Below, in pieces: positions 1 through 37,142 of a stretch of DNA of 64,000 nt. Position numbers and translations under genes: made by a program. The DNA comes from Roseobacter sp. MED193 (lineage in GTDB: Bacteria; Pseudomonadota; Alphaproteobacteria; Rhodobacterales; Rhodobacteraceae), in the NCBI RefSeq assembly GCF_000152965.1, contig NZ_CH902583.1:1859101-1923100 (forward strand). Direction: 5' to 3'. Below the pieces are notes generated by a model. It saw only the letters and a program-made list of their open reading frames with translations, did not search any database and was not told where the DNA came from. The first letter of the stretch is position 1; every line of letters starts with the position of its first letter.

Positions 1-599
<599 letters not shown>

Positions 600-28274: not shown

Positions 28275-29786
28275 ATGCTTGAAGGACTGTTGATCGGCCT
28301 GCAAACGGCCTTTTCGATCCAAAACCTGCTGATGGTTATCGGTGGCTGCCTGATCGGTACATTTATTGGCATGCTACCGGGGCTTGGGCCGATGTCTATC
28401 ATCGCCATTATGATCCCGGTGGCCATTTCGATGGGCGATCCCTCTGCCGCACTCATCCTTTTGGCGGGCGTCTATTATGGGGCAATCTTTGGCGGCTCGA
28501 CGTCCTCCATCCTGCTCAATGCGCCGGGTGTTGCAGGCACGGTTGCCTCCAGTTTCGACGGCTACCCCATGGCCAAACAGGGAAAGGCGGGCAAGGCCCT
28601 GACCATTGCTGCAATCGCCAGCTTTGCAGGTGGCAGCATTGGCGCCCTATTGCTGATGATCTTTGCGCCCGCCCTGTCTTCTGTCGCCTTGCTGTTCCAT
28701 TCGGCGGAATATTTCGCCCTGATGGTCGTTGGGCTCTCGGCCATTGCAGCCTTTGCTGGAACAGGGCAGGTGGCCAAGGCCCTGATGATGACCACGCTGG
28801 GACTGATCATGGCAACGGTGGGAGAGGGCGCACTGTTCAACCTACCCCGTTTCACCATGGGGATCATGGACCTGCAATCCGGCTTTGGCTTTATCACCTT
28901 AGCGATGGCAATGTTTGCGCTGCCCGAGGCGCTGTTTCTGGTGCTGAAACCGAAAATTCAAGTGGGCAAGGGCGAAGAAATCAAAGACCTGCGTATCACC
29001 CGCCAAGAAGCAAAATCTATCGCTCCAGTCATTGGCCGCCAATCGATTCAGGGCTTCTTCATCGGGGTTCTGCCCGGCGCGGGCGCGACGATTGCCAGCT
29101 TTTTGGGTTACGCTGTGGAACGCAATATCGCCACTAAGGCAGAACAAGAAGCCTTTGGAAAAGGGTCGATCAAAGGGCTTGCAGCACCTGAAACTGCAAA
29201 TAATGCGGCCTGCACAGGTTCGTTTGTGCCTTTGCTGACGCTGGGCATTCCCGGCTCGGGCACCACCGCCATTTTGCTGGGGGCGCTTATCGCGCTCAAT
29301 GTCACACCAGGTCCGCGTCTTATGATCGACGAGCCGCAGATATTCTGGGCAGTGATCATGTCGATGTTCATTGGCAATCTGGTTCTACTGATCCTCAACC
29401 TGCCACTGATCCCCTATATCGCCAAAGTATTGACCATTCCGCGCAACTATCTGATCCCATTCATCCTGTTCTTCACTTTGATGGGTGCCTACATCGGGCA
29501 GAACAATGCAACCGAACTGTTGCTACTGGTTGGTTTCGGGATCTGTGCGACGGCTCTGCGCTTTGCCGATTACCCTTTGGCGCCACTGTTGATCGGCTTC
29601 ATTCTGGGCGGCATGTTGGAGGATAATTTCGCCCGCTCGATGCAGCTCTATGACGGTATTGCATTCATTTGGGAGCGTCCGATGACACTCGGGTTATTGG
29701 CAATTGCTGCCTTGCTGATTGTTTTGCCCAGCTATCGCAACCGAAGGGCCCGGTTGCGCATGCAGGGAATCGCGGATGGAGATTGA
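28275..29786 (+). CDS. tctA: Tripartite tricarboxylate transporter large permease subunit TctA
   Basis: A 503-residue polytopic permease with 10-12 membrane helices. Family motifs: IGTFIGMLPGLGPMSIIAIMIP and YYGAIFGGSTSSILLNAPG in the first half, and the repeat-like FFIGVLPGAGATIASFLGY and GIPGSGTTAILLGALIALN in the second; these paired glycine-rich loops are the TctA signature. It couples solute uptake to an ion gradient. GGAGG precedes the ATG, 4 bp after tctB. No obvious terminator follows before the integrase remnant. Confidence 0.95.
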   Translation: MLEGLLIGLQTAFSIQNLLMVIGGCLIGTFIGMLPGLGPMSIIAIMIPVAISMGDPSAALILLAGVYYGAIFGGSTSSILLNAPGVAGTVASSFDGYPMAKQGKAGKALTIAAIASFAGGSIGALLLMIFAPALSSVALLFHSAEYFALMVVGLSAIAAFAGTGQVAKALMMTTLGLIMATVGEGALFNLPRFTMGIMDLQSGFGFITLAMAMFALPEALFLVLKPKIQVGKGEEIKDLRITRQEAKSIAPVIGRQSIQGFFIGVLPGAGATIASFLGYAVERNIATKAEQEAFGKGSIKGLAAPETANNAACTGSFVPLLTLGIPGSGTTAILLGALIALNVTPGPRLMIDEPQIFWAVIMSMFIGNLVLLILNLPLIPYIAKVLTIPRNYLIPFILFFTLMGAYIGQNNATELLLLVGFGICATALRFADYPLAPLLIGFILGGMLEDNFARSMQLYDGIAFIWERPMTLGLLAIAALLIVLPSYRNRRARLRMQGIADGD

Positions 29787-35158: not shown

Positions 35159-35626
35159 ATGGAATTAACGAGCAAAGAAGACGTAGACGCGCCTCTTGCA
35201 GAAGTCTTTGAAGCGATTTCTGATTTTTCCAGTTTTGAACGCTCGGCCATCCGACGCGGCGTCGAGGTGCAGCGCCTGAGCGAAGACGTGACGCCGCAGG
35301 TTGGCATGGCTTGGGATGTGCGCGCAGATTTTCGCGGCAAACCCCGAGAATTGCGCCTGTCCCTATCAGCCTATGAACCTGCGACACTGATCGGTCTGAT
35401 CGGTGAGAGCAACAGCCTCACGGGCAAGGGACAGATTGAACTTCTGGCTCTTTCCCCACGGCGCACCCGTCTTTCCGTCAAGGTCAAGGTCGAGGCAAAG
35501 ACACTCTCTGGGCGGCTGTTGTTGCAATCAATGAAACTGGCGCGATCCAAGGTCAATAAACGTTTCAAGCATCGCGTGGCCGAGTTTGCCAGCCTGACAG
35601 AAGAGCGATTGACTGGCAGCGCTTAA
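35159..35626 (+). CDS. SRPBCC (START-like) family protein
   Basis: A 155-residue protein starting MELTSKEDVDAPLAEVFEAISDFSSFERSAIRRG, the first-strand/helix pattern of the SRPBCC/polyketide-cyclase fold. There follow beta strands (LRLSLSAYEPATLIGLIGES, RTRLSVKVKVEAKTLSGRLLLQSMK) and a C-terminal helix. Such proteins bind hydrophobic ligands in a deep cavity. No signal or membrane segment is present. It probably belongs with nudC in one transcript, though a functional link is unknown. Confidence 0.82.
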   Translation: MELTSKEDVDAPLAEVFEAISDFSSFERSAIRRGVEVQRLSEDVTPQVGMAWDVRADFRGKPRELRLSLSAYEPATLIGLIGESNSLTGKGQIELLALSPRRTRLSVKVKVEAKTLSGRLLLQSMKLARSKVNKRFKHRVAEFASLTEERLTGSA

Positions 35627-35642
35627 ACCCACCCTAGTTTTT

Positions 35643-35673
35643 GGTTGGGCCCTGTCTGGCATTGGGCCCAACC
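35643..35673 (+). terminator. Strong hairpin after SRPBCC gene, no T-run
   Basis: A perfect 10-bp inverted repeat GGTTGGGCCC / GGGCCCAACC with an 11-nt loop starts 16 bp after the stop codon. There is no run of T afterwards, so it may be a weak or factor-assisted terminator or a 3' stabiliser. Confidence 0.45.
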
Positions 35674-35804
35674 TGCCTTACGACGTGCTCTGACCTCCAT
35701 CGGCGCTCTCGCCCGCATCTGCCAGGCAACAGGCATTTTGCTGAGGGCGGACCGCACCTCACTTCTTGATTGACGACTCATCCCGGTCAGCGATAGCCGT
35801 GTAA

Positions 35805-36007
35805 CGGATGGTTCTTGCGACGCATAAATCTAGTGTCCGGGATGAAAAGGGAACGTGGTGCGGAGAGGTTAGTTCAGCCGATCCAATTCCACGACTGCCC
35901 CCGCAACTGTAAGCGGTGAGCGCTTCGGATTAACCACTGGTACAGGGACATGATCCCCGGCTGGGAAGGACCGAAATCGCGTTGACCCGCAAGTCAGGAG
36001 ACCTGCC
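35805..36007 (+). promoter_or_regulatory. Cobalamin (B12) riboswitch aptamer
   Basis: The plus strand carries the conserved order of the AdoCbl/cobalamin aptamer: an AAAAGGGAA-type junction (about 35846), GTGG, ACTGCCCCCGCAACTGTAAGCGG (the B12-box core, about 35893-35915), CCACTGG, GGGAAGG, and GACCCGCAAGTCAGGAGACC near the 3' end. Spacing is that of class I cobalamin riboswitches. It precedes a possible terminator-like structure and a small uncharacterised gene, which should therefore be repressed when B12 is abundant. Boundaries are approximate. Confidence 0.95.
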
Positions 36008-36079
36008 ATCACGTATGAAACTCGAAACTGGGCGGGGAGCCCGGGCGAGTGCATGAGATGTGATCGGCGGACCTTTTTC
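36008..36079 (+). promoter_or_regulatory. Probable expression platform of the cobalamin riboswitch
   Basis: Right after the aptamer the transcript can form a nested hairpin: ATCAC/GTGAT (36008-36012 with 36060-36064), ACTCG/CGAGT (36020-36024 with 36046-36050) and GGGC/GCCC (36030-36033 with 36039-36042). A CCTTTTTCT tract follows (36072-36079). This could be a transcription terminator controlled by B12 binding; the alternative antiterminator was not worked out. Confidence 0.5.
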
Positions 36080-36134
36080 TATGCGTCGAATCTCTTGCCT
36101 TCGTCTGGTATCCCAGCCATCGCGCGGAGGGCGC

Positions 36135-36542
36135 ATGATGACACCGATGGATCACAGAACGACCGAACAAACCCATCACTTTTCCCAAAGCATCTGTATG
36201 CATCATGGCGCACCTTGTCCCGCCCTCGCCCGAATGCTCACGGCGCTGGCCGGGGCGGTAGACAAGGCCCGTCCGGTTACAACAGCAGAATTTGAACTTT
36301 GCGGCGAAAGCCTGATGGATGGCTGTGCCCGCCATTGCCCCGCCCGTTTCATTGCCACGCATGACCGCATTCGGGTGTTTTGTGACGTCACCGAGACGAC
36401 CGAGACCCAAGCTCTAGACCGTTTTGCGGACAGCTTGTTTCAGGCCAATAGCCCGGCATTTTCCGCCGCGAAACTGGAGCGACGCCCCTGCGCTATGGGG
36501 GAGGCCCTAGCGAAATCCGGGCGCTATCAGCCAAACGCATAG
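36135..36542 (+). CDS. Cobalamin-riboswitch-controlled Cys/His-rich small protein, function unknown
   Basis: A 135-residue soluble protein. After a His-rich N-terminus (TTEQTHHFSQSICMHHGAPCPALARML) come a helix, then FELCGESLMDGCARHCPARFIATHDRIRVFCDV. Two cysteine groups, C-x5-C (with two His inside) and C-x7-C-x3-C, plus the alternating strand/helix layout suggest a thioredoxin-like metal- or Fe-S-binding fold. The match to any named family is not secure. The frame is open from a GTG at 36060, but ATG 36135 (or 36138) has GGAGG at good spacing. The upstream cobalamin riboswitch makes it part of the B12 regulon, so cobalt/cobalamin acquisition or a B12-replaceable function is plausible. The gene following is convergent, so it is transcribed alone. 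Confidence 0.8.
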   Translation: MMTPMDHRTTEQTHHFSQSICMHHGAPCPALARMLTALAGAVDKARPVTTAEFELCGESLMDGCARHCPARFIATHDRIRVFCDVTETTETQALDRFADSLFQANSPAFSAAKLERRPCAMGEALAKSGRYQPNA

Positions 36543-36602
36543 GCGGTCTGCGTGTTTTCCAGGCGCAGCAAACGGCAAATAATCCACCAGAGCATGCCTG
36601 CG

Positions 36603-37142
36603 TCACTCAGACCTTTGAGGAGCTGCGCCAATTACGGATCCAACCGCCCAGCTCATCTGGTCATCGGTCTCTACCGCGCAAGCACGCACTGCGCGCAACC
36701 TTCGCAGGGCTATGTCGGGCGCTTCTCCGGCTTCAATCATCAGACGCAGAACAACCATGCCTGAGCGCCCACAACCGCCCTTGCAGTGTACCAGAACGCG
36801 CCCCCCGCCCCGCAGCGCCTGAAGCGCCAAAGCGCTGACCTCGGGCCATTGCCTCAGCATGTCTTTTGTGGGGGCAGAGAAATCTGGCAGTGGCAGGTGT
36901 ATCCAGCGACATCCCATGGCCTGAAAATCCTGCCCCAAAGTGGCCGCGCCGACGCTGACATGTTCGACCTCGGTCGTCATAGAGATCACCAATCCTGGCT
37001 GCCAGTCATGCAAATGATCCATATCGCCCTTGTAGTCGCCGCCGCTGCCAGGAAGCGGGCAAAGCGCTAGAATGCCGTCTTGCACACTCAAGGCGTGCAG
37101 GGTGAGAGGGCGCGGGGCTGGGCCGGTCAGGTGATCATCCAT
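36603..37142 (-). CDS. Cyclin-dependent-kinase-inhibitor/dual-specificity-type protein phosphatase
   Basis: A 179-residue protein with the cysteine phosphatase P-loop HCKGGCGRSG (C-x5-R, about residues 119-128) preceded by GGGRVLVHC. An upstream conserved Asp-containing loop LPLPDFSAPT (about 84-93) likely supplies the general acid. The RLMIEAGEAPDIALRRLRAVR helix after the P-loop is typical of KAP/DSP-like phosphatases. Cytoplasmic; the substrate (protein phosphotyrosine or other phosphoester) is unknown. AAAGGGA precedes the ATG. It is convergent with the B12-controlled gene and divergent from dnaX. Confidence 0.82.
   Translation of the reverse strand: MDDHLTGPAPRPLTLHALSVQDGILALCPLPGSGGDYKGDMDHLHDWQPGLVISMTTEVEHVSVGAATLGQDFQAMGCRWIHLPLPDFSAPTKDMLRQWPEVSALALQALRGGGRVLVHCKGGCGRSGMVVLRLMIEAGEAPDIALRRLRAVRACAVETDDQMSWAVGSVIGAAPQRSE

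Follow-up and report, generated by a model that had tools for sequence, protein, structure and literature searches.

The locus lies in a window of 64,000 nucleotides from Roseobacter sp. MED193 (contig NZ_CH902583.1, positions 1,859,101 to 1,923,100), the term denoting the whole stretch of DNA that was analysed. It combines a cobalamin (B12) riboswitch, one downstream gene and a convergent neighbour, with the following features:

35792–36024, plus strand: cobalamin riboswitch aptamer (RF00174, 116.2 bits, E 1.9e-28)
35898–35903, plus strand: loop L5, CCCCCG (sequence and Rfam alignment)
36028–36044, plus strand: L13-type hairpin, CTGGGC-GGGGA-GCCCGG (conserved in aligned leaders)
36111–36118, plus strand: C-rich tract, predicted anti-L13 (minimum-free-energy and constrained folds)
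36122–36134, plus strand: hairpin GCGC-GGAGG-GCGC with the Shine–Dalgarno (SD) sequence, 36126–36130, in its loop (covariation, 40 distinct rows)
36135–36542, plus strand: gene for a putative divergent DUF1636-like four-cysteine protein (open reading frame, homologues and profile comparison)
36603–37142, minus strand: small protein-phosphatase-like gene, convergent with the riboswitch gene (DSP/PTP-type Pfam matches)

The aptamer, already recognised as complete in a preliminary description of this DNA, spans the whole RF00174 model (positions 1–189 of 189) and scores above the curated threshold of 31.5 bits. It is one of four RF00174 aptamers found in the MED193 genome. The second stands upstream of genes for a CbiM-like cobalt importer and then a tetrapyrrole methylase; the third precedes a periplasmic-binding-protein and FecCD-type transporter, which we read as BtuF–BtuC; and the fourth precedes an ordinary DUF1636 gene (L022), cobW and cobN.

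The reading frame downstream of the window aptamer runs from an ATG at 36135 to a stop at 36542 and encodes 135 amino acids, as the preliminary description had it. A second ATG at 36138 (134 amino acids) lies 7 nucleotides (nt) 3′ of the GGAGG and is the more likely true start, because close relatives start 7–8 nt after GGAGG. Searches of Pfam and NCBIfam with the single protein gave no match, in keeping with its earlier labelling as an uncharacterised Cys-rich protein. A search of the PDB returned one chance match (E 0.6), and the 29-row class profile found nothing there better than E 0.22. In the literature on DUF1636, COG5469, B12 riboswitches, Rhodobacterales and Roseobacter, judged by titles and the beginnings of abstracts, we found no study of this gene class; supplementary regulon tables may list the gene.

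Searching with the window protein alone found relatives in 17 of 149 genomes of the family, itself included, and a six-row class profile found matches in 63 of 394. With that profile, 14 of the 394 genomes gave strong matches (>130 bits), followed by outer members; besides the window, five of the 14 were themselves in the profile. Two weak rows were dropped before counting (L021, with an internal stop, and L121, from an actinomycete metagenome-assembled genome), both without a riboswitch. Beyond the family, the window class turned up once in 385 genomes sampled from the taxonomic class, a few of them from the same family: this sole find, G540, scores 84.5 bits and has a riboswitch upstream.

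The six-row profile also reaches ordinary DUF1636 genes, at about 45–61 bits. The DUF1636 genes examined fall into two classes. In the first, represented here by L022, the DUF1636 gene lies directly 5′ of cobW in all of the best 30 PF07845 loci, fetched from 148 genomes searched, whereas the window gene has no cobW neighbour; 28 of the 30 proteins entered the alignment, L046 and L050 being left out as too short. The second comprises stand-alone DUF1636 genes of Rhodobacteraceae (for example, L015), with no cobW in the fetched stretch, and these proteins resemble the window class in size and are homologous to it over their length. Because the stand-alone rows came up as the weaker hits in searches with the window protein or the class profile, they do not form a random sample. 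Several family genomes (for example, at G038:C11:878382-878705 and G073:C2:298674-298994) have a further DUF1636 gene, scoring about 55–70 bits, at a distance of about 15 kb from the one with the higher score; it possibly represents another class.

Comparison of profiles with hhalign aligned the window class with stand-alone DUF1636 at 98.8% (E 1.2e-15). The value was 97.7% against the two DUF1636 classes pooled and 4.8% against cobW-linked DUF1636 alone, and the two DUF1636 classes matched each other at 99.6%. Direct searches at family level gave less: PF07845 (DUF1636) gives no match at all with the window protein, and it matches 9 of 29 class rows weakly (best E 0.0045), the best row tried alone, L076, reaching 24.5 bits, under the Pfam cut-off of 31.6 bits. 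The unrelated-looking DGC domain also matches 9 of the 29 rows weakly (best 0.042). In a tree of 82 rows, from which six near-copies were omitted, a 100/100 branch separates the window class, together with five outer rows, from the remainder; the tree rests on few columns, and rows L016, L017 and L077 are long, the last of them being placed within the class. By profile comparison, then, the window protein represents a diverged sister branch to DUF1636, along the lead to DUF1636 and thioredoxin-like ferredoxins that the preliminary description had suggested. That description also held that the protein looks like nothing related to B12, which does not survive, as the protein is a distant homologue of a family whose gene precedes cobW and cobN in this genome. 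Because DUF1636 is itself of unknown function, homology to it does not amount to the confident match to a characterised family that the preliminary description had set against its own view. An expectation that stand-alone DUF1636 and the window class exclude one another was dropped: G200 has both, by eye, and their co-occurrence is at about chance level.

A joint alignment of 91 rows defines six cysteine positions, C1–C6. In the 39 distinct window-class sequences, collapsed from 42 class rows, C2, C3, C5 and C6 are invariant (39 of 39), C1 occurs once and C4 never. The conserved cysteines of the window protein are C21, C28, C64 and C68. Stand-alone DUF1636 proteins pass the Pfam cut-off and carry all six cysteines in 14 of 14 rows. 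The cobW-linked proteins share C2 (28 of 28), C5 (28 of 28) and C6 (27 of 28) with the window class but have C1 (27 of 28) and C4 (28 of 28) and lack C3, which occurs in 1 of 28. Among the DUF1636 rows pooled, C1 is therefore present in 41 and C4 in all of 42, and the window class fails on both, so that by Pfam score and by its cysteines the window protein is to be placed outside DUF1636. Of seven outer rows, none has C4 and four keep C1, a pattern suggesting that the loss of C4 preceded that of C1. The window class has its own motif, H-x-R-I-R-x-F/Y-C, and further conserved residues in C83, H14 and H76 (36 of 39 each) and C119 (33 of 39). The motifs proposed earlier need revision. The C-x5-C with an HH inside is in fact C-x6-C (C21 and C28), its HH unconserved; of the C-x7-C-x3-C, C64 and C68 stand, and C56 is found, among the named loci, only in the nearest relatives L093–L098. 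With C2, C3, C5 and C6 invariant and C1 and C4 gone, the tetra-cysteine set has shifted, and we infer that C21, C28, C64 and C68 hold a putative metal ion or Fe–S centre with ligands displaced from the DUF1636 set.

Part of PMC4520260 describes a model of DUF1636 built on the thioredoxin-like [2Fe-2S] ferredoxin of Aquifex, in which three of the four ligands are kept and another cysteine acts as substitute, and in which Cys9 and Cys55 form a rigid, conserved pair. In our weak profile alignment (E 0.43), C1, C3, C4 and C5 coincide with cysteines of that ferredoxin (1f37/1m2a), C1 and C4 with Cys9 and Cys55. On that same weak alignment, the C3 and C5 positions are common to the ferredoxin and the window class, whereas two of its four ligand positions, C1 and C4, are absent from the class. 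An AlphaFold model from 29 rows (pLDDT 82.8, pTM 0.78) predicts, in order, a strand, a helix, three strands, a helix and a strand, presumably similar to the order in the ferredoxin. A Foldseek search with the predicted model returned no hit as good as E 0.001, and the best VIA hit reached Z 3.9, so that neither tied the model convincingly to a solved fold. A solved relative exists on the cobW-linked side, PDB entry 9jn8 (‘ORF378’), matched by the DUF1636 profile at E 2.3e-40; among the titles listed, we found no paper on it.

Linkage of the window class to the riboswitch is uniform. In all 14 strong class genomes, the window included, an RF00174 aptamer immediately precedes the gene in the same orientation, and it immediately precedes the gene in 28 of 28 named loci (L093–L120), two sets that overlap in some species. 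The aptamer is likewise directly upstream of 14 of 14 stand-alone DUF1636 genes, and upstream in 20 of 20 cobW-linked loci scanned, of the 30 fetched. Outer rows L011, L014, L077, L078 and L122 have it too; the outer relative in G040 (L017) does not. Judged on this conservation, the window gene is a real, conserved target of the B12 riboswitch. Two loci differ in riboswitch arrangement: at L011, cobalamin riboswitches lie both before and after the outer-member gene, and at L125 a DUF1636-like gene is preceded by two of them, one after the other.

The neighbourhood of the window gene contains the phosphatase-like gene, a START/cyclase-like gene, a NUDIX gene and dnaX; none of the neighbours identified is a B12 gene. 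dnaX lies downstream in 28 of 28 named loci, with the phosphatase-like gene between on the opposite strand, and the NUDIX/START pair further upstream is inverted or was not found in several of them. All 14 class genomes carry a CobN (TIGR02257) match with an E-value no higher than 1e-172; across the 394 family genomes, 279 exceed the cut-off and 340 show a match of any strength. The over-cut-off flag was seen for seven of the 14 and taken for the other seven from similar E-values; assuming all 14 to be over the cut-off, and without correction for kinship, the co-occurrence has P 0.007. The outer genome G153 has the riboswitch and lacks a CobN match, and in G040 the match reaches just 1.9e-87.

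The leader between aptamer and gene bears on how the riboswitch may act. The letters of L5 are identical in 42 of 42 window-class leaders. The stem of the L13-type hairpin in relatives reads GGGC/GCCC or GGAC/GTCC around a GGGG loop, and this G-rich loop is complementary to the CCCCCG of L5, both loops being conserved. Kissing loops are a known component of B12 riboswitches, as part of PMC7689651 sets out, and L5 and L13 may kiss in the window leader. Among 91 leaders scanned, a hairpin enclosing the SD is present in all 42 of the window class, in 12 of the 14 from stand-alone DUF1636 genes and in all 7 outer rows, L016 and L017 having a different shape. The cobW-linked leaders differ, with 2 of 28 positive, both weak.

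In its common shape, over 40 distinct rows, the SD hairpin pairs in 97.5% of cells, and its covariation is 0.342 versus 0.089 in shuffles, a value reached by 0 of 500; versions slid along the alignment give at most 0.091. Two of five covariation measures were not unusual: the pairs changed on both sides were matched by 230 of 500 shuffles and the pair types by 56 of 500. Variation lies mostly between the stand-alone DUF1636 rows and the window-class rows; within the class it consists of GTGC/GCAC in L099, L100 and L113. Of the two matches for L087, the second was taken. The row set excluded L016, L017, L091, L092 and the cobW-linked class, and the presence of the hairpin in 59 of 59 rows is no independent count, because the rows were chosen after the scan had shown it to be absent from most of those excluded.

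These features bear directly on the preliminary description, which had proposed a terminator-type platform, with a T-tract after the aptamer, through which the riboswitch would act on transcription. There is indeed a run of five Ts at 36074–36078. However, a simple consensus scan of 35600–36700 found 0 terminator-like sites, against 1.1 expected in shuffles, and the T-run is not conserved among 21 aligned relatives; what is conserved instead is the covarying SD hairpin. For want of a terminator-like site and of a conserved T-run, the terminator finds no support. The scan used leaves room for other kinds of termination, and we regard control by a terminator as highly improbable. The conserved platform looks translational, with an L13 hairpin facing L5 and a covarying hairpin around the SD.

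Folding in silico points the same way. When L13 was held with its loop blocked, access to the SD dropped in 28 of 32 class leaders, from a mean of 0.55 to 0.22, and in the window leader from 0.79 to 0.03. Over 30 leaders the mean fall was 0.34; with the middle of the leader shuffled it was 0.073 (s.d. 0.042), and 0 of 30 shuffled sets reached 0.34. Individual leaders varied, and in 12 of the 30 access fell by less than 0.1 or rose. Stand-alone DUF1636 leaders barely responded (0.30 to 0.26, 10 leaders); the folds with L13 held did not include L090. In the free fold of the window leader, 36031–36033 pair with 36116–36118 and 36035–36038 with 36111–36114; the folding energy of that leader as a whole is unremarkable (z −0.95). 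These folds support, without proving, a translational OFF switch. In the absence of B12, the C-rich tract (36111–36118) would pair with the L13 strand and the SD would stay accessible in its hairpin loop, allowing translation; with B12 bound, L13 would kiss L5, the C-rich tract would be released and the SD would be buried. Repression of the window gene by B12 is expected by analogy with the riboswitch class. The predicted arrangement resembles that of the Escherichia coli btuB-type translational riboswitch, which, as described in part of PMC7689651, likewise joins an RF00174 aptamer to L5, a partner hairpin and occlusion of the ribosome site; the window leader differs in that the SD itself sits in the loop of a covarying hairpin and in having a target gene outside every named family.

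Taken together, we propose that the riboswitch represses, at the level of translation, a monocistronic mRNA encoding a four-cysteine sister of DUF1636 that serves a cobalt or corrin step at low B12, a reading in which our confidence is evenly balanced. When B12 is scarce, the protein would be made and would most likely serve such a step, by cobalt delivery or electron supply. Its best-supported role is that of a metal or Fe–S protein acting in that step under B12 shortage. The cobalt-, corrinoid- or Fe–S-related protein of the preliminary description is retained in this form as a hypothesis.

Within this explanation two roles are conceivable. One is electron transfer, the protein being a [2Fe-2S] protein with exchanged ligands that would supply the electrons to reduce corrin-bound cobalt, or for a similar step, under B12 shortage. 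The ferredoxin-based model of DUF1636 in PMC4520260, the weak alignment of C1, C3, C4 and C5 with the ferredoxin cysteines and the four cysteines that are still invariant speak for it; yet the class has lost precisely the C1 and C4 that align with the rigid pair Cys9/Cys55, and neither Foldseek nor VIA confirmed a thioredoxin-like fold, and we rate this role as possible and somewhat doubtful. The other is cobalt or zinc handling, in which a putative mononuclear Cys4 site would make the protein a cobalt chaperone or buffer for the CobW–CobN step. Two ferredoxin-type ligand positions lost while four cysteines of another set are kept would suit such a site, as would the conservation of H14, H76 and C83; moreover, the same genome places the riboswitch before its cobalt-importer and cobW–cobN units, and all 14 class genomes have a CobN match. 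Against it, no cobalt gene adjoins the window gene; we rate this role, too, as possible and somewhat doubtful. A stronger version seems to us unlikely: a paralogue of a ferredoxin-like protein, carrying the riboswitch, would have exchanged a metal-binding set that included C1 and C4 for C2/C3/C5/C6, and an Fe–S protein would thereby have become a dedicated chaperone for cobalt (or a corrinoid), produced only once B12 is exhausted. It would then be a Roseobacter B12-starvation factor, one that we know from no description of a B12 pathway.

Outside this explanation, the gene could be a regulatory or decayed paralogue: a zinc-stabilised partner binder, or a weakly selected gene, with no role in the cobalt step. 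Its stand-alone position, patchy distribution (strong in 14 of 394 family genomes) and large sequence drift would fit, but the invariant cysteines and other conserved residues across 39 distinct sequences, and a riboswitch link unbroken in the class examined, argue against it, and we think it quite unlikely.

B12 riboswitches point well to unknown steps in cobalt and corrin handling, and the one described here accompanies all examined members of a protein class whose representative in the window goes unrecognised by Pfam and NCBIfam. The host group was noted in the preliminary description for both making and trading B12. Three riboswitch-linked classes with differing cysteine sets offer a direct route to the role of DUF1636 and to the question of whether its metal site was re-plumbed in evolution.

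Three further observations concern records and features apart from the riboswitch gene. Locus L117 (JAHVJD010000004.1), titled Nocardioides marinus, is of Rhodobacteraceae type: its protein and that of family genome G238 have the final 100 residues in common, and the dnaX and phosphatase neighbours are present, the record probably being a mislabelled or mixed assembly. The start of the window (1–599, minus strand) lies inside a 16S ribosomal RNA gene (RF00177), and positions 29310–29437 on the minus strand match RF02646, the Ruegeria cis8 small RNA, at 90.2 bits.
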